Origin: Anaeromonas frigoriresistens
GTDB taxonomy: Bacteria > Bacillota > Clostridia > Tissierellales > SIT17
Assembly: GCF_016820655.1 (NCBI RefSeq)
Contig: NZ_WSFT01000016.1
Span: 1 to 64,000, forward strand
Direction: 5' to 3'
DNA length: 64,000 nt
Shown: positions 13,047 through 22,258 of the stretch, in pieces
How positions within the stretch are numbered: position 1 is the stretch's first letter
Layout: each line of letters starts with the position of its first letter
The notes under the pieces: model-generated
Database searches by the model: none
What the model was told of the DNA's origin: nothing
Seen by the model: only the letters and a program-made list of their open reading frames with translations
Made by a program: the position numbers and the translations under genes

Positions 13047-13179
13047 AAGCATATCCCCCTTTATTGCTATTATAAACTTATATCAATCTAATAAAAATAC
13101 CAACTTTATATATAATTTTTCTTTACCCAAACATAACAAGAGCTTTAAAATAACCATTCTGATAATATTAAAAAATAAA

Positions 13180-13210
13180 AAAGCAGAAAGAACTAACCCT
13201 TCTACTTTTA
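13180..13210 (-). terminator. Intrinsic terminator of the mevalonate operon, overlapping the mvaK2 stop
   Basis: On the minus strand AAAAGTAGAA pairs with TTCTGCTTTT (one G-U pair) around a loop GGGTTAGTTC, followed by T-rich sequence. The 5' arm begins in the TAA stop of mvaK2. It is related to the hairpins at 5300 and 10775. Confidence 0.75.
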
Positions 13211-14320
13211 CGTCTCCTTTACTATTGAAATACCTTTTTTTGATATACTTAAATTTAATGGACTAATATTAACTGCCTTCCATGCTCTATATAACTCTTC
13301 TTTTTGATTATCACTTTTCAGAAAAGCAATTCCACAGTCTCCTCCTCCAGCTCCTGATGATTTGCCACTTCCAAATGCTTCAGCAATATCACATAAAGTT
13401 TTTAGTTCGGCTGTTTCGATAGTAATACCGGTCATTTCATCAAGTTTTTGAAGTGTTTTCCTATTTTGTGCTAAACTATTGATGGCCTCTTTACAATCAT
13501 TTTTCTCAAAACTATTAATCAATTGTTCTACTGAAATATAGCTTTCCCTTAGAAACCCATTGTAATCATCTATATTACTATCACGAAAATTTTTAACCCT
13601 CTTGATCATAGGTGCTGTTGCTGCTGCTTCCTTTGTCCATCCAACAACTAATTCAAGGGATGATGGAGGAGTTAATGACTTGATCACCAAATTAGGCCAG
13701 GATGTATATATCAGCTCTATTATACCTTTACCTTCCTCTAACTCATTTAATATCCACTCTGAACTAAAAGCAGTATACTCAAGCCAACCTCCATAAACAG
13801 CTGCAGCAATATCAGCTCCTGAACCATTTCCTTGAGTTTTTAAATGTGCAATAGCAGAAAGTTTAAAAATTTGTTCTTTTATAGGATATTCACCCTCTTC
13901 AGTATGGTACCTTAAAACAGCAGAAATAACAGCGACCACAATAGCTGCACTAGAGCCAAGTCCATATTTTTTCCCTGTCAAAGGATCATTAAGTTCACTT
14001 TTAATTTGTATCTTAAAGGGTTGAAGTTTTACTGATTTTTCTTGTAAAAATCTTATCGCCACCGTAATGGAATTTTGGATAAATTTCAATCGTGAATCTG
14101 ATACACCAAACTGTATCCTTTCATCATTCATTTCCCATGTAATACCTTCTATTTTCCACTGGGGAATAGAAATCTGATTTTTTTTATCTGGTTCTATATA
14201 AGCAGTTACATAACGATCTACAGCTATAACCACTGACTTCTGCTTAGGTTCTAGTACAGCATACTCACCAGCAATCATTAGCTTTCCTGGAATTTTCACA
14301 CTATAGCTTGAATAGGTCAT
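13208..14320 (-). CDS. mvaK2: Phosphomevalonate kinase
   Basis: GHMP kinase, 370 aa, converting 5-phosphomevalonate to 5-diphosphomevalonate with ATP. Seen: an N-terminal VKIPGKLMIAGEYAVL motif (residues 8-23), the phosphate-binding loop KKYGLGSSAAIVVA near 130, a TQGNGSGADIAAA segment near 170 and the C-terminal GKSSGAGGGDCGIAF near 335. Those blocks and the length fit bacterial type MvaK2. It is the last gene of the fni-mvk-mvaD-X-tctA-mvaK2 operon, starting 19 bases after the permease stop with AAGGAGAGG as ribosome site. The kinase is separated from its pathway partners by two membrane-protein genes. Confidence 0.92.
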   Translation of the reverse strand: MTYSSYSVKIPGKLMIAGEYAVLEPKQKSVVIAVDRYVTAYIEPDKKNQISIPQWKIEGITWEMNDERIQFGVSDSRLKFIQNSITVAIRFLQEKSVKLQPFKIQIKSELNDPLTGKKYGLGSSAAIVVAVISAVLRYHTEEGEYPIKEQIFKLSAIAHLKTQGNGSGADIAAAVYGGWLEYTAFSSEWILNELEEGKGIIELIYTSWPNLVIKSLTPPSSLELVVGWTKEAAATAPMIKRVKNFRDSNIDDYNGFLRESYISVEQLINSFEKNDCKEAINSLAQNRKTLQKLDEMTGITIETAELKTLCDIAEAFGSGKSSGAGGGDCGIAFLKSDNQKEELYRAWKAVNISPLNLSISKKGISIVKET

Positions 14321-14338
14321 TACTATTCCTCTCCTTAA

Positions 14339-15697
14339 CTATAAAATCGATAACATTTTAATAATCCATGGTGCTGAATATAAAGTCATAAATAGAACAC
14401 CATAATTAACTCCCAATCTAAATAATACCCCTGATACAATCCCTATTAAAAGAACACCAGCGATATTAATCCATCCTGCATCTATAAAAGCTAACAATAA
14501 TACTAAACTAAAAAATAGACCTAACATTGCTTCATGGGGTATTCTTTTAAACACAAAGGTACAAATTTCCTGGGAATACTTAACTGCAATATAGAATGTA
14601 AAGACTGAAGCAATCACAGCTCCAATAAGAGTTGCCCAAACAAAATCTGAAGTTGATAATAGATGGTGCATATTATTCTCTAAGTTATAAACCGGTGGAG
14701 CATTAAATAACGGATTAGCTGGTCCAATAGCCATAGGTGATAAGGGTATCCCTAAAGCAATAAGTGGAATTAATGTTCCAGAAATATAGGTTGCCTGAGC
14801 TAAGGCTTCCATGGTAGATACTGCAATTGATGCCTTCTCAACTGGGTCCTTTGTACCGCTAGCAAACAACTCTCCAAAGAAAGTAGTCATACCAACAGGA
14901 CTTAATATAAAGGTAACAGATCCAATAAGGGAAGCTAATGCACTATAACCAACCTCTTTCTTTGTTAAAATCTTAAATGGATTTGGAAATTTATTGATTT
15001 TATCTCCCTTTTTTAAATAAATTGTTTTCTTATCAAATCGTGGCATACTGTCTCTTTTATCTTTATTTAACATTTCAAATAAGGTTAAAATCACAGGGCC
15101 AATAGTAATACCTAAGAAAAAAGAAATAAATACATTAGTTCCTTCTGGTACTACTCCAATTCCCCAATACATATAACGAAGTCCTTGAATTAATATTGCA
15201 AAGGGTAGTATTGAAGCTAGGGCTATCCATCTTTTCTTACTCATGAGGGCTAATAATACAGCCCCAATAAAAAACACTGGATCTCCATACTTTTTAATAA
15301 CCATTGCAAAGGGAATCAAGGCTTGAGCTAGAAATAAACTTACTGGTATAGAAATAATAGTTCCTATAATAGCTCCTGAAGCAATTTTTCGAATACTAGT
15401 GTCTGTTAGACCATTTTTTTTCAAGATCATAGCATGTTCTACCATCGGCGTAGACATAACACCAGCAGGAATCCCTGCTATTGAAACAGGAACTGCATCA
15501 ATCAATTTACATGCTATAATAGCTGAAATAAAGAAGGCCAGTATTACAGCAGGCTGTATTCCTGATAAAACTAATACTAAAGTTATTGGTGCTATAGTTG
15601 CAGTTTCATCTGCTCCTGGAGCAGCACCAATAATAGTATACATAACCGCTGCAATAGCAGCGGCAATAATCATCTGTAAAATTAAACTAATATCCAT
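14339..15697 (-). CDS. TctA-like permease embedded in the mevalonate operon (452 aa)
   Basis: Very hydrophobic protein with roughly 11-12 membrane helices. It contains TctA/DUF112-type features: an early GAAPGADETATIAP loop (TctA proteins have a G-x-x-PG motif here), IPAGVMSTPMVEHAM around residues 78-95, and a second-half repeat with GIPLSPMAIGPANPLF near 320-335. TctA is the large subunit of tripartite carboxylate transporters. No periplasmic binding protein (TctC) gene is in the window. It begins one base after the stop of the 89-aa gene and ends 19 bases before mvaK2, so it is cotranscribed with lower-pathway enzymes. I infer a transported carboxylate related to the pathway, mevalonate being the obvious candidate. 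Family assignment is by eye. Confidence 0.7.
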   Translation of the reverse strand: MDISLILQMIIAAAIAAVMYTIIGAAPGADETATIAPITLVLVLSGIQPAVILAFFISAIIACKLIDAVPVSIAGIPAGVMSTPMVEHAMILKKNGLTDTSIRKIASGAIIGTIISIPVSLFLAQALIPFAMVIKKYGDPVFFIGAVLLALMSKKRWIALASILPFAILIQGLRYMYWGIGVVPEGTNVFISFFLGITIGPVILTLFEMLNKDKRDSMPRFDKKTIYLKKGDKINKFPNPFKILTKKEVGYSALASLIGSVTFILSPVGMTTFFGELFASGTKDPVEKASIAVSTMEALAQATYISGTLIPLIALGIPLSPMAIGPANPLFNAPPVYNLENNMHHLLSTSDFVWATLIGAVIASVFTFYIAVKYSQEICTFVFKRIPHEAMLGLFFSLVLLLAFIDAGWINIAGVLLIGIVSGVLFRLGVNYGVLFMTLYSAPWIIKMLSIL

Positions 15698-15698
15698 A

Positions 15699-15968
15699 TT
15701 AATCCTCCTGATTTGCTTCTATAAATAACCTTTTAGGTTTAATAAAAATAGTACAGATAATAAATCCAATAATTGCACCAGTTAAACCAAAAAATAGTGG
15801 CTTAGGAGGTTCTTGAGGTGCAATGAAATATCCTCCAAGGGTTGTACTACTACAAACAATAAGAGATATAACCAGATGTTTAATGTTGACTATATCCTCC
15901 CAAATTTCAATATTCTCTTTTAAATCCATTCTCTCACTTTCTTCTAGTGACTCATGTATTATATTCAT
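15699..15968 (-). CDS. Small 2-TM protein preceding the TctA-like permease (89 aa)
   Basis: The first 28 residues are charged and polar, then helices at about 30-48 and 60-78 and a short basic end (KPKRLF). The ribosome site GGAG is 8 bases before ATG 15968. Its stop is separated from the permease ATG by one base, implying tight coupling. In position it mimics TctB, the small membrane subunit of tripartite transporters, but TctB usually has four helices and about 150 residues, so this would be a reduced partner. I do not recognise a family beyond that. Confidence 0.6.
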   Translation of the reverse strand: MNIIHESLEESERMDLKENIEIWEDIVNIKHLVISLIVCSSTTLGGYFIAPQEPPKPLFFGLTGAIIGFIICTIFIKPKRLFIEANQED

Positions 15969-15993
15969 TCACTCAACTCCTATATTTAAATTT

Positions 15994-16968
15994 TTATAAA
16001 TAGGTAATTCCTTCACCTGGATGACAAGTAATAACCTCTTTAACAGAAGGTAGGCTTAATAAAGATTCATAAATACGCTTCTCGTCAGTTGGCAAACAAA
16101 GAACCTTTACATTTGGACCAGCATCTATAGTAAGATAAACAGGAATACCAGATAGCCTTAGACTTTGAATATAATGAATTACCTCCATCGTTCCACTTTG
16201 CCAATACAAAACTGGAGGTTCAGCTCCTAACATGGTAGCATGCATTTTTAATGCATTCCCTTCAACTACTTCTCCAAGTCTTTCAAAATCCTGTGCATTT
16301 ATTGCTTCTCTTACCATTACCAAATCTTTTTCTACAGTACTTAGCCAGCCAGAATAAAAAGGAGAAGTCTCAATTGTACGTTTCATTCCTTCTCTACTTG
16401 ATACATTTTTTTCTTTCGAAGCTACAACAACTGATAATATACTAATATTCCAATCCTTTTCTGATAATAGTGGTTTAGCAAAGGAATCTTGTCCATCTTT
16501 TTGTATTCCCTTTTGCCACTCTACAAATCCTCCATAGATAGAACGACTAGCAGATCCTGACCCTTGACGAGCTAGAATTGATATATCTTTCTTATCTAAA
16601 TCTAAATTAAGAGATTTCGATGCTGCAGCTGCTAAGGCAGCAAATCCAGATGCAGAGGAAGCAAACCCTGCAGCTGTAGGTACTTTATTTTCCGAAATAA
16701 TTTCTGCATGTAAGTTAGTTCCTGTCCTTTTTCTTATGCGATCAAGAAATCTAGAAACCTTATCTCTCTCACTATTACTTTCTATATTCTTGTTTAAAAT
16801 AAAAATATCACTATCCAGTTTTTCTTTGAATTCTACAGTAGTTATAGTATAAAACTTATCAAGAGTAATAGATATACTACTATTCATAGGTAAAAACAAG
16901 TTCTCATCACGTTTTCCCCAATATTTTATCAATGCAATATTGGTATTTGCTTTTGCTGTAGCTTTCAT
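15994..16968 (-). CDS. mvaD: Diphosphomevalonate decarboxylase
   Basis: GHMP-type enzyme of 324 aa, forming isopentenyl diphosphate from 5-diphosphomevalonate with ATP and loss of CO2. Diagnostic motifs: ALIKYWGKRDENLFLPMNSSIS (residues 12-33), VPTAAGFASSASGFAALA (ATP loop, about 105-122), RQGSGSASRSIYGGFVEW (about 140-157) and TIDAGPNVKVL near 285, which carries the catalytic Asp. The ribosome site AGGAGG is 8 bases before the ATG. It follows mvk by 12 bases and precedes the 89-aa membrane protein by 25 bases. Confidence 0.95.
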   Translation of the reverse strand: MKATAKANTNIALIKYWGKRDENLFLPMNSSISITLDKFYTITTVEFKEKLDSDIFILNKNIESNSERDKVSRFLDRIRKRTGTNLHAEIISENKVPTAAGFASSASGFAALAAAASKSLNLDLDKKDISILARQGSGSASRSIYGGFVEWQKGIQKDGQDSFAKPLLSEKDWNISILSVVVASKEKNVSSREGMKRTIETSPFYSGWLSTVEKDLVMVREAINAQDFERLGEVVEGNALKMHATMLGAEPPVLYWQSGTMEVIHYIQSLRLSGIPVYLTIDAGPNVKVLCLPTDEKRIYESLLSLPSVKEVITCHPGEGITYL

Positions 16969-16980
16969 TTACTTATCCTC

Positions 16981-17949
16981 CTAATCATTCAGTGATACAT
17001 AGAGTCTTTCATTTTCAGTTGAAAAATACCAGCTCTTCTCAACTCCTGATTTTACTAATTCATCTGCTACTACTTTAGAATGCTCTAGATCTCGACCAAG
17101 GGCTATAATACAACCTCCTAGTCCTCCTCCTGTTAATTTAGCTCCCAATGCACCAGCATTTATTGCTACATTAATTAGTTTATTAAGGTTATCATCGCTA
17201 ACACCTAAGTTTATAAGTTCCTGCTGATTTAAATTCATTAATTTTCCTAACAAGTTATTATCTCCATTCACCAAGGCATATTTAGATTCGTCAGCAATTC
17301 TCTCAATTTTAGCTAATGATTTCTGTATATTACTTTTCTCTAAATCATATCTCTTTTTGACATTTGTAACTGCCCTTCTAGTATTGCCAGTTCTTCCAGT
17401 ATCAGCAACAACAATATGAAATGGTTCCCTAATCTTAATGGTCATGGACTCTTTACCTTTTTTAAACCATATTGGATATTCACTGGATGAAGCAATCATA
17501 TCCAATCCACTGGGATTTCCATGGGCATAGGTTTCAGCTACTGTAACAAGAGAAAATAATATATCCTTGGATAACTTCTGTCGATAGAATGAAAATAAAC
17601 TCCTGACAATAGTAATTGAAATTGCAGCACTGGATCCTAATCCCCTTCCAATTGGGATAAGTGAATCAATTGTAATGTGTAAATCTCTAATAGGTTTATT
17701 TAAATAATTTAAGGTTTCTTTAATACACTCTTCTATTCCTCTCATTTCATTAGGCATTTCATATATATATCCTCTATAAAGAGAAGATTTAAATTTAATT
17801 GGACCTTTAGATTCCTTTACTGTTGCTCTTACTTTTAAAGGAAAGGGCATAGCTATAGCAGGTTTCCCATAAACAACTGCATGTTCTCCAACTAATATCA
17901 ATTTACTATGAGACTCTCCTATTGCTTTTTTATTACTCTTCAAACTCAT
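16981..17949 (-). CDS. mvk: Mevalonate kinase
   Basis: GHMP kinase of 322 aa phosphorylating mevalonate to 5-phosphomevalonate. Seen: SKLILVGEHAVVYGKPAIA (residues 15-33), IPIGRGLGSSAAISIT (ATP loop, about 105-120), AHGNPSGLDMIASSS (about 148-162, with the catalytic Asp) and AKLTGGGLGGCIIAL near 280. The ATG overlaps the fni stop in an ATGA arrangement (17949-17946), so translation is coupled. It is the first committed kinase of the lower pathway and would be the entry point for mevalonate taken up from outside. Confidence 0.95.
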   Translation of the reverse strand: MSLKSNKKAIGESHSKLILVGEHAVVYGKPAIAMPFPLKVRATVKESKGPIKFKSSLYRGYIYEMPNEMRGIEECIKETLNYLNKPIRDLHITIDSLIPIGRGLGSSAAISITIVRSLFSFYRQKLSKDILFSLVTVAETYAHGNPSGLDMIASSSEYPIWFKKGKESMTIKIREPFHIVVADTGRTGNTRRAVTNVKKRYDLEKSNIQKSLAKIERIADESKYALVNGDNNLLGKLMNLNQQELINLGVSDDNLNKLINVAINAGALGAKLTGGGLGGCIIALGRDLEHSKVVADELVKSGVEKSWYFSTENERLYVSLND

Positions 17950-18992
17950 TTTGCACCATCCAATAATTCCTTAAGTTCTCCTTTTATCCTATAGGGAACA
18001 TTTTTTAACTCCCCTATGTTCTTTTTACCTAATAAAAGCATAATAACTTTGGACTTATAAATAATATTCTGTAGATATTTTTCTGCACTTTCATATCCTT
18101 CATCTACAAATTTCTTTAAAACAGGTCCACTGATTCCTATTATATCTGCTCCAACACATAATGCCTTAACTACCTCATTAGCAGTTCTCATTCCCCCTGT
18201 GCTGATTATATTTAAATCATTACTTATGGCCCTAGTTTCTATAAGACTTAGAGCAGTTGGAATTCCCCATTCAAATAATTCATAAAAGTCAAATTCTTCG
18301 TTTCTTGCATTCTCTACTTTAATGAAATTTGTTCCTCCATGACCCCCTACATCTATATATTTAACTCCTATACTTCTTAATCTTGTTGCCACATCCTTTG
18401 AGATACCAAATCCAACTTCCTTCACAATAACAGGTTTATCAATTTTTTTAACCATATCCTCAATATTGTTTAATACACCTTTAAAGTCTCTATCTCCTTC
18501 AGGCATACATATTTCCTGAGCTGGATTCAAATGAATCTGAATAGCATCTGCCTGTATCATCTCCATAGCTCGACGAGCTTCATCAACACTCACAAAGGCA
18601 TTTACATTTGATATAACAACTCCATCCTTTAATACTTCCCTAACAATTTTAAAGGATGCTTCATAATTTTTATCCTTTATTGCAATTGTCTGAGAACCAA
18701 CTGCCATAGGTATATTTAATTCCCTTGCTATTTTAGCAAGGTTGCTGTTTATTTCTACTGCCTTATCAAAACCTCCTGTCATTGCATTTATCATTACAGG
18801 AAAGCTTATATCCTTACCTAAAAAACTAGATTTTGTGCTTATTTCAGCAAAATCCAGTTCTGGTAAAGAGTTATGTTCTAAATATATATCTTTAAAGTAA
18901 TTATCACTCTCAAAATTATCTTTTAAAATATGATTAACATGATCTTTTTTTCTTGAGCTTCTAATTTTACTCTTTGAGTTTAATTCTTCCAA
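17946..18992 (-). CDS. fni: Type 2 isopentenyl-diphosphate delta-isomerase (FMN-dependent)
   Basis: 348 aa, interconverting isopentenyl and dimethylallyl diphosphate in a flavin TIM barrel. Motifs: RKKDHVNHIL near the start, FPVMINAMTGG (about 70-80), MAVGSQTIAI, IQIHLNPAQE (about 150), PVIVKEVGFGIS, VGGHGGTNF and IISTGGMRTANEVVKALCVGAD. It is the first gene of the operon. The start is a TTG at 18992-18990 with GGAGG ten bases upstream; no better start exists. A promoter with a palindromic box lies about 75-115 bases upstream (19065-19108). Confidence 0.94.
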   Translation of the reverse strand: MEELNSKSKIRSSRKKDHVNHILKDNFESDNYFKDIYLEHNSLPELDFAEISTKSSFLGKDISFPVMINAMTGGFDKAVEINSNLAKIARELNIPMAVGSQTIAIKDKNYEASFKIVREVLKDGVVISNVNAFVSVDEARRAMEMIQADAIQIHLNPAQEICMPEGDRDFKGVLNNIEDMVKKIDKPVIVKEVGFGISKDVATRLRSIGVKYIDVGGHGGTNFIKVENARNEEFDFYELFEWGIPTALSLIETRAISNDLNIISTGGMRTANEVVKALCVGADIIGISGPVLKKFVDEGYESAEKYLQNIIYKSKVIMLLLGKKNIGELKNVPYRIKGELKELLDGAK

Positions 18993-19064: not shown

Positions 19065-19093
19065 ATGATACCATAGTGATACGAATTTGTAAA
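19065..19093 (-). promoter_or_regulatory. SigA-type promoter of the mevalonate operon
   Basis: On the minus strand TTTACA (19093-19088) and TATCAT (19070-19065) are separated by exactly 17 bases and point into fni. The predicted transcript would have a leader of about 65 bases. Confidence 0.6.
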
Positions 19094-19501: not shown

Positions 19502-20983
19502 TTACACTTTACTTTTTGCAATAGAATCAAATTCATCTTGAATTTCTTGAGAAGGCTCTTTACCTAAAAGACTCACTATGACAATTATAATACATGCTAA
19601 GAAGAAAGCAGGAACCATTTCATATAATTCAAAAATACCACCTGTTAATTTGCCCCATATAAATACTGTAGCTCCTCCTACTATCATTCCTGCTACTGCA
19701 CTTGTCTTTGTCATCCTTTTCCAAAATAGCGAGAATAAAACCACAGGCCCAAAGGCTGATCCAAATCCAGCCCATGCATTAGATACTATATCTAGTACAG
19801 AACTATTTGGATTCAATGCAATGATATATGCAATAATAGCTATAGCTAAAACTGTAATTCTACTCACCATCAAAAGCTGCTTCTGTGATGCATTTTTATT
19901 AATTAGTGGTTTATAAAGATCCTCTGAAAAAGCTGATGCAGTAACCAATAGCTGTGAATCAGCAGTACTCATAATTGCAGCTAAGACAGCAGCTAAGAAT
20001 ACCCCTGCTACGATTGATGGAAGTAATCCATCTATCAGAACCATAAATACTTGTTCAGAGTCTCCTAATACTCCTGGGATGATTATTCTTCCTACCATAC
20101 CAACAACAAGAGCCGCCACTAAACTTACAATAACCCAAGTCATAGCAATTCTTTTTGATGTCTTAATTTGGGAAGAAGATTTTATTGCCATAAAACGTAC
20201 TAAAATGTGAGGTTGTCCAAAATATCCTAAACACCAAGCAAAGGATGATAAAATCACTAACAATCCTAGACTATTCCCCGCTGCATCTGTCAATGGATTT
20301 AAAAGTTCTGTATTAAATCCTCTAATACTATCTAAAGTAGCAGATGGTCCTCCATTTGTAGAGATACCAATAATCGGTACAACTACAACAGCAATAAACA
20401 TTATAATTCCTTGAATAAAATCAGTAGTACTCACTGCCATAAATCCACCTAAAAAAGTATATCCTACTATAACGATAGCTCCTATGGTAAGAGCTATAGT
20501 ATAATCTAGTCCGAATACTGTTCCAAAAAGTTTTCCACCTGCTACAAACCCTGATGCTGTATAAACAGCAAAATAAAATACAATAATTATAGATGATACC
20601 ATTCTCAATGTATTGTTATCGTCTCTAAATCTATTTCCAAAGTAGGATGAAAGAGTTAAGGAATTTCCTGCTATCTCAGTATATTTTCTGAGCCTCGTTG
20701 CAACAAACTGCCAATTTAAAAATGTTCCAATTCCTAAACCTAATGCTAACCATAGAGATCCTAGTCCTGAAAGATAAGCTGCCCCTGGAAGTCCCATCAA
20801 AAGCCATGCACTCATATCTGATGCTTGTGCACTCATTGCAGTTACCCAACTTCCTAATCCTCTTCCTCCTAACACATAATCAGATAGGTCTGCTGTTTTC
20901 ATGTAATAATAAATACCTATTCCTAACATAACCCCTAAGTATAATACAAATGCTACTAATATTGCTAAATTACCCTCTAACAT
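19502..20983 (-). CDS. putP: Sodium:solute symporter, probable sodium/proline symporter
   Basis: 493 aa with about 13 membrane helices, the LeuT-fold SSF family. The N-terminal third matches PutP: LSDYVLGGRGLGSWVTAMSAQASDMSAWLLMGLPGAAY (residues about 33-70), then GGFMAVSTTDFIQGI in TM6 and a conserved MSTADSQLL segment carrying the sodium-site residues. Sodium-driven proline uptake is the likely role; related amino acids are possible. The ribosome site AAAGGAGAG precedes the ATG. The 333-base upstream region holds two palindromes (21095-21119 and 21127-21136) that may be control sites. Probably monocistronic. Confidence 0.9.
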   Translation of the reverse strand: MLEGNLAILVAFVLYLGVMLGIGIYYYMKTADLSDYVLGGRGLGSWVTAMSAQASDMSAWLLMGLPGAAYLSGLGSLWLALGLGIGTFLNWQFVATRLRKYTEIAGNSLTLSSYFGNRFRDDNNTLRMVSSIIIVFYFAVYTASGFVAGGKLFGTVFGLDYTIALTIGAIVIVGYTFLGGFMAVSTTDFIQGIIMFIAVVVVPIIGISTNGGPSATLDSIRGFNTELLNPLTDAAGNSLGLLVILSSFAWCLGYFGQPHILVRFMAIKSSSQIKTSKRIAMTWVIVSLVAALVVGMVGRIIIPGVLGDSEQVFMVLIDGLLPSIVAGVFLAAVLAAIMSTADSQLLVTASAFSEDLYKPLINKNASQKQLLMVSRITVLAIAIIAYIIALNPNSSVLDIVSNAWAGFGSAFGPVVLFSLFWKRMTKTSAVAGMIVGGATVFIWGKLTGGIFELYEMVPAFFLACIIIVIVSLLGKEPSQEIQDEFDSIAKSKV

Positions 20984-21316: not shown

Positions 21317-22258
21317 TTAAAAAATAACTAAATGTATGATTCCTCTCAACACAATACCTATAATTGCAGCTTTAAATGCTGGTTTAGTAACTGAAGCTAC
21401 CCTCGTTCCTGCTGATATTAATAATGCTACACCTACAGGATCCAGTGGATTTATAGAAAATCCTGCTATTCTATTTAACTCAACCGCTGTCATACTACCT
21501 TCCGATATTAAGTCCATCACTATTGCCATCATTGCAGTTCCACCTGCTATATACTTTGTAGCAATTGGTAATATAGCTACTCCAGGTATACCAACCCTAG
21601 TCAATGCAGGAGCTAATAGCTTTTCTAAAAAGTCTATAACGTTAATCTCTCTTAATATATTAACCATAAATAGTGCTAATATCAAAGGTACTATTGATTT
21701 TTTTGCAATTTCTAAACCTTCTTCTCCTCCCCTAAATAAGAGAGAAATTATTTTCTTTTTTTCTACCTCTTTATCATCTTTTACAGAAATCTCTTCTTGA
21801 GGTAATTTATCAGATTCATCCTCTCCATGGAATCTATAAGCAAGATATGCTGCTATTAATCCCCCAATTATTGAAGTTAATATAATTATAGGCATATTTA
21901 AACCTACAACTGCCAAGGGCAGGATAGCATTTCCTTGAGACATTACTAATACAGCAGCTAAAGTAGCAGCAATTTGTCTATTAGATATATGTTTATCATA
22001 CTCCATTATCTTGAATGTAGCTATCGGTGCCGCAAAACTTATAAACTGAACTTGCAACAAAGCAAATACACCTAAGCCAGGTAATCCAAAAAAAGCTAGT
22101 ATAGGTGATAATTTAGCAGCAATAGCACCCAATACACCTTTATTTTCAAGTACTCGCATAACGGCCATCATCACAACTAGTATAGGGAGTATTAAATATA
22201 AGGCTAAATTAATAGCTGTCTCTCCTGAATTGATTATTATTTCAACTAATGTGTGCAA
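21317..22258 (-). CDS. Nucleoside-recognition (Gate) domain membrane protein
   Basis: 313 aa with two similar hydrophobic halves (about 1-150 and 185-313) joined by a charged linker DESDKLPQEEISVKDDKEVEKKK. Each half resembles a Gate domain: LPILVVMMAVMRVLENKG in the first, and TKYIAGGTAMMAIVMDLISEGSMTAVELNRIAGF in the second. Proteins of this type are predicted transporters or regulators of small-solute flux; the name nucleoside recognition is historical. The start is TTG at 22258 with AGGAGG eight bases upstream. No cotranscribed partner is visible. Substrate unknown. Confidence 0.75.
   Translation of the reverse strand: MHTLVEIIINSGETAINLALYLILPILVVMMAVMRVLENKGVLGAIAAKLSPILAFFGLPGLGVFALLQVQFISFAAPIATFKIMEYDKHISNRQIAATLAAVLVMSQGNAILPLAVVGLNMPIIILTSIIGGLIAAYLAYRFHGEDESDKLPQEEISVKDDKEVEKKKIISLLFRGGEEGLEIAKKSIVPLILALFMVNILREINVIDFLEKLLAPALTRVGIPGVAILPIATKYIAGGTAMMAIVMDLISEGSMTAVELNRIAGFSINPLDPVGVALLISAGTRVASVTKPAFKAAIIGIVLRGIIHLVIF

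Follow-up and report, generated by a model that had tools for sequence, protein, structure and literature searches.

The Clostridia bacterium Anaeromonas frigoriresistens carries a lower mevalonate pathway operon into which two genes for membrane proteins, a TctA-related permease and an 89-residue protein (p89), are inserted. We consider it probable (about 0.85), from sequence and genomic context, that this operon is a mevalonate salvage module and that the p89-permease pair is its mevalonate importer. The operon lies in a stretch of 64,000 nucleotides (the window; contig NZ_WSFT01000016.1), and evidence for its role comes from the source genome, from the co-occurrence of the pair with mevalonate genes across Clostridia and Bacilli, and from the two kinds of operon in which the pair is found.

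The mevalonate operon

The operon is a run of six minus-strand genes transcribed in the order fni, mvk, mvaD, p89, permease and mvaK2 (Table 1), with intergenic gaps, from fni to mvaK2, of -4, 12, 25, 1 and 18 bases. An earlier note on this DNA had described this gene order, gap lengths between -4 and 25 bases and a single terminator at the end of the run, and each of these was borne out, with all six ORFs recovered at their minus-strand positions. The enzyme assignments were made with NCBIfam equivalog models, all four of which scored over their cut-offs, and both kinases and the decarboxylase of the lower mevalonate pathway (TIGR00549, TIGR01220 and TIGR01240) are present in the operon. The promoter-like site upstream of fni is weak, since 31 such sites were found as against 42 expected in shuffles. 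No RNA family was detected in the window by Rfam at gathering thresholds. Upstream of the operon lie genes for a PutP-type sodium/proline symporter (19502-20983) and a Gate-domain membrane protein (21317-22258), which are separated from it by a terminator-like hairpin (19368-19341) and appear unrelated to it.

Table 1. Features of the mevalonate operon in the window
Feature	Position	Strand	Evidence
fni, type 2 isopentenyl-diphosphate isomerase, transcribed first	17946..18992	-	TIGR02151, 390 bits vs cut-off 281.3
mvk, mevalonate kinase	16981..17949	-	TIGR00549, 275 bits vs cut-off 163
mvaD, diphosphomevalonate decarboxylase	15994..16968	-	TIGR01240, 349 bits vs cut-off 171
p89, small membrane protein, 89 aa, putative permease partner	15699..15968	-	no family over cut-off; two predicted TM helices
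TctA-related permease, 452 aa, putative mevalonate importer	14339..15697	-	PF01970, 82 bits; co-occurrence with mevalonate genes
mvaK2, phosphomevalonate kinase, transcribed last	13208..14320	-	TIGR01220, 332 bits vs cut-off 166
Intrinsic terminator-like hairpin and T-run after mvaK2	13179..13209	-	
Promoter-like site upstream of fni, TTTACA-17-TATCAT with a TG preceding the second hexamer	19065..19093	-	consensus match only

Among the genes of the operon the permease is the best conserved between the window and the congener G001 (84% identity, dN 0.10, dS 0.89), which points to strong purifying selection on it; the enzymes share 57-73% identity in the same comparison.

Isoprenoid routes of the source genome

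The source genome (3.2 Mb, 99.15% complete) has no match to the HMG-CoA reductase (HMGR) profile PF00368, with control genomes behaving as expected, so that the earlier remark that the reductase gene is not in the window holds for the genome as a whole. HMGR is likewise absent from the three congeners examined. The lower mevalonate pathway of this organism is thus left without a known internal source of mevalonate; without HMGR, an HMG-CoA synthase (mvaS) would not lead to mevalonate either. Searches of the same genome did find the MEP pathway genes dxr and ispG, which makes the operon a means of salvage beside the MEP pathway and not the sole or essential supply of IPP. This corrects in one respect the earlier inference that the operon turns external mevalonate into isoprenoid precursors, which is otherwise supported. 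Obligate mevalonate auxotrophy of the source organism is ruled out by the same two genes. Sampled genomes of three families of the order (f4, f5 and f7) have ispG and lack a canonical dxr (PF02670), a gap that a type II DXR is likely to explain (PMC3847144); auxotrophy of family f7, which the missing dxr might have suggested, is ruled out by the presence of ispG.

In the pathway that we envisage, p89 and the TctA-related permease would form a secondary transporter that takes up mevalonate without a binding protein. The imported mevalonate would be converted to IPP by mevalonate kinase, phosphomevalonate kinase and diphosphomevalonate decarboxylase, with Fni balancing IPP and DMAPP, and would thereby supplement de novo synthesis by the MEP pathway. 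In related bacteria the same transporter appears instead to feed catabolism, in which mevalonate would be converted to HMG-CoA by HMGR and then be acted upon by HMG-CoA lyase (HMGL). The transport activity itself, its substrate, direction and ion coupling, and the role of p89 are all what we infer from the observations presented here.

The permease and its small partner

The permease matches the Pfam TctA profile PF01970 over nearly its full length (profile positions 1-417 of 423) with a score that is modest but over the cut-off (82 bits against 28.9), in keeping with the earlier call of this protein as TctA-like. Profile-profile comparison with canonical TctA (hhalign) gave a probability of 95.6% at 22% identity. 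By these comparisons the permease and TctA are distantly related. The glycine motif GxxxG..PGxG, which occurs in both TM1 and TM7 of all eight canonical proteins compared, is only partly kept in the permease: TM1 retains just GAAPGA, followed by an invariant DET, and the repeat of the motif was not found in the TM7 region, where the sequence reads FILSPVG. Signatures of the permease family are PGxDET and GIPLSPxAIGP...FNAPP. A confident AlphaFold model of the permease (pLDDT 86, pTM 0.87) had no Foldseek match at E below 0.001, and none of the solved structures resembles it convincingly. In structural comparisons with this model the top row was barley YS1 (Z 10.2), and the others mostly had middling Z, among them LaINDY (Z 7.8, rmsd 5.9, 207 aligned) and HiSiaQM (Z 6.4, rmsd 7.8, 214 aligned), both with Z in a range common for the tool. 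These middling DASS and TRAP rows are compatible with, and not proof of, a place of the modelled fold in the ion-transporter superfamily. Searches by sequence for relatives of solved structure gave none for the permease and only chance-level matches for p89.

Two helices are predicted in the structure model of p89 (residues 29-49 and 56-75), the first being preceded by a conserved E-x-W-x-D segment and the second followed by KPKR. It has no Pfam or NCBIfam family over cut-off and no match to the Pfam TctB profile, and its hhalign probability against eight canonical TctB proteins is 0.9%, in a family so poorly conserved that a remote kinship might escape notice. The comparison with TctB, which the earlier note had suggested, thus revealed no detectable relation; p89 as a shortened TctB is without support, the only shared likeness being gene position. 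That position is constant: p89 lies directly upstream of the permease in 80/80 named loci, at a spacing of -26 to +12 bases (-4 to +12 in 77 of them), which suggests translational coupling and a complex of the two proteins. The p89-related proteins of three loci (L029, L015 and L030) are longer, at 147-156 residues.

Matches to the TctC solute-binding protein (PF03401) number zero in the source genome, which agrees with the earlier description of a reduced two-part transporter without TctC; 23 of the 34 genomes searched, this one included, are without TctC. The pair is hence a TctA-related variant that has no binding protein and lacks defining features of a tripartite transporter.

Co-occurrence with mevalonate genes

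The pair is present in both Clostridia and Bacilli, and no holder without any mevalonate genes was found among those examined. Among 100 genomes of the order a true mvaD occurs in 15, all of which also have the permease; the only other permease holder (G015) has an adjoining HMGR and no mvaD (hypergeometric p ~1e-17, an order of magnitude only, as phylogeny is ignored). Within genera the two come and go together: in g1 the source genome, G001 and G003 have both and G002 has neither; in g10 G028 has both and G012 and G040 neither; and in g7 G089 has both and G009 neither. Of 341 genomes drawn evenly from the class, four have the permease, and each of these also has mvaD or HMGR: the source genome and G362 have mvaD, and G171 and G347 have HMGR beside the permease; mvaD was found in no other genome of this draw (hypergeometric p ~2e-7, again phylogeny-blind and good to an order of magnitude). 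The pair of G362 is not linked to its mva genes, from which it lies about 230 kb away. Among 50 named holders, which include Clostridium, Bacillus, Virgibacillus, Oceanobacillus, Lentibacillus and Sporolactobacillus, mvaD is present in 45 and the remaining five have HMGR beside the pair. These counts are not phylogenetically independent. HMGR without the pair was seen in five class genomes and in G064.

The adjacency, whose frequency in other genomes the earlier note had wished to see checked, recurs widely: the pair lies among mvk, mvaD and mvaK2, often with fni, in 45/80 named loci and in 12/15 neighbourhoods from relatives in the order, and its linkage to lower mevalonate genes is therefore not a matter of chance. 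It had also been proposed that the permease might carry an unrelated carboxylate and owe its place in the operon to accident, as TctA proteins generally move citrate and other acids (PMC5812351). We regard this as very improbable, since the co-occurrence, seen in independent draws and in one case without linkage, counts strongly against accidental placement, and the pair recurs beside both sets of mevalonate-using genes.

Two operon settings and a common substrate

The second of these sets centres on HMGR. In L029 (G015) the order is HMGL-HMGR-small protein-TctA and in L151 (G171) it is p89-TctA-HMGR-HMGL, whereas in L030 and L152 HMGR and the pair are accompanied by AtuA-family genes; L030 also has an upstream sigma-54 activator. 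No mvaD match was found in G015, G171, G347 and five of the named Bacilli, and ispG was found in all five of these mvaD-less holders that were checked (5/5). HMGR is thus not needed for isoprenoids in these holders, and most simply it degrades mevalonate. NCBIfam names the HMGRs beside the pair 'degradative' (TIGR00532), a label that counts for little here, as it is often given to class II enzymes of biosynthesis too. Mevalonate kinase and HMGR have just one metabolite in common, mevalonate, and this is the main argument for mevalonate as the substrate of the pair.

An importer of a related compound that feeds the same genes, such as 3-hydroxy-3-methylglutarate, mevalonate-5-phosphate or mevalonolactone, would accord with the range of carboxylates carried by TctA-type permeases (PMC5812351) and with the AtuA-family genes that also adjoin the pair. 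However, hydroxymethylglutarate needs HMGR to enter the lower pathway and phosphomevalonate is not an HMGR substrate, so that only mevalonate suits both operon types, and we consider these compounds improbable substrates. Mevalonolactone yields mevalonate upon hydrolysis, yet itself bears no carboxylate.

The direction of transport bears on another reading, in which the pair would act as an overflow valve exporting mevalonate or another pathway intermediate. Many oceanobacilli have an unlinked pair together with a full mevalonate pathway including HMGR; these have no evident need for import, and their pair may act in export. HMGR is, however, missing from the source genome and from all of the tested genomes in which the pair is inside a lower mevalonate operon (0/16, vs 31/34 of the others), leaving no known mevalonate to export; the HMGL-HMGR-pair operons of mvaD-less genomes, being of catabolic type, also need import. 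We thus hold export to be unlikely and mevalonate import to be the better account of the pair. The earlier inference that the operon captures external mevalonate is supported by the absence of HMGR, the recurring adjacency, the co-occurrence that persists even when the genes are unlinked, and the HMGR/HMGL operons in genomes without mvaD.

Several related loci deserve mention in their own right. The stand-alone pairs of the oceanobacilli (L099, L103, L108-L113 and others) occupy a syntenic position on the chromosome, and the genomes concerned have the full mevalonate pathway. The 1.8 Mb genome of G362 (97% complete; L153 and L154) has lower mevalonate genes and the unlinked p89-TctA pair, and neither HMGR nor ispG was found in it, which makes its organism a candidate for a true mevalonate auxotroph. 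In L169 (5680-10037) an AtuA-AtuA_ferredoxin-HMGR operon has a GntP-type permease in the place that the pair occupies in L030 and L152; this replacement is consistent with a transport function that a different carrier is able to take over, and the GntP-type protein is a possible second, unrelated mevalonate carrier. The repeated occurrence of AtuA and AtuA ferredoxin-like proteins beside HMGR (L030, 4693-6474; L152, 11908-13634; L169, 8340-10037) suggests that members of the AtuA family act on HMG-CoA or on a closely related compound. More divergent HMGRs adjoin HMG-CoA lyase without the pair in L171 (2000-4219) and L172 (7470-9702).

Evolution of the pair

In a tree of 97 permease sequences labelled by context (lower-mevalonate, HMGR or unlinked), nine changes of context are needed, all of them among the mevalonate settings and the unlinked state, and the HMGR setting appears in several separate places. 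The window permease groups with sequences from Clostridium and Fonticella (82-84%) and is only about 40-54% identical to those of most of its own order. The neighbours of the operon in the source genome differ from those in G001 and G003, and the operon was not found in the congener G002. Horizontal transfer is likely.

Implications and comparison with known systems

Bacterial uptake of mevalonate has been a known phenotype since mevalonate was discovered as a growth factor for lactobacilli; to our knowledge, however, no natural bacterial mevalonate permease gene has been characterised or assigned. In the literature that we searched, which largely excluded subscription journals, we found no paper naming such a permease and none linking TctA with mevalonate, an absence that is not proof. 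The words 'transporter' and 'uptake' and the stem 'scaveng' are absent from the main text of a review on isoprenoid routes in bacteria published in 2026 (PMC13001223). We think there is a good chance that the pair represents a widespread, hitherto unrecognised family of natural mevalonate importers, of TctA type, without a binding protein and with their own small subunit, serving salvage in cells that have the MEP pathway, catabolism and, in at least the small genome G362, true auxotrophy. If so, mevalonate would be traded among the members of bacterial communities, an indication of cross-feeding with a precursor of isoprenoids, and partial mevalonate pathways in genomes would be read as salvage instead of decay. 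The question is directly testable, as the two-gene candidate is present in culturable Clostridium, Bacillus and Sporolactobacillus, with Clostridium intestinale and Bacillus niameyensis among the holders.

Among known systems, the mevalonate catabolism of Pseudomonas mevalonii, in which mvaA encodes HMGR and mvaB HMG-CoA lyase, is mirrored by the relatives of the pair in HMGL-HMGR operons (L029 and L151), whereas the window operon is an anabolic lower pathway with neither gene. Import of mevalonate, the function that the pair would have, has been obtained with the yeast carrier JEN1, which laboratory evolution turned into a mevalonate importer that sustains growth when mevalonate is supplied from outside (PMC12405511). 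JEN1 belongs to an unrelated family, while the pair would be a natural importer, and as such useful for mevalonate-fed strains, for which JEN1 needed evolving (PMC12405511). In its permease the pair resembles the archaeal stand-alone TctA proteins (arCOG04469), which are of the same family, also occur without TctB and TctC and have been suggested to be self-sufficient (PMC5898192; PMC5812351); in contrast to these, the pair is bacterial and has a conserved small partner of its own and a specific metabolic context. With the tripartite TctABC transporters (the TTT family), whose TctA-type permeases carry citrate and various other carboxylates and for which a 2018 review found bacterial TctA lacking TctC to be very rare, with one genome left (PMC5812351), it shares a remotely homologous permease and a small membrane protein encoded just upstream of it, as TctB is. 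It differs from them in that there is no TctC gene in the genome, the small partner is not detectably TctB and has two TM helices against the four of TctB, the canonical glycine motifs are incompletely preserved, and the genes are linked to those of mevalonate metabolism.
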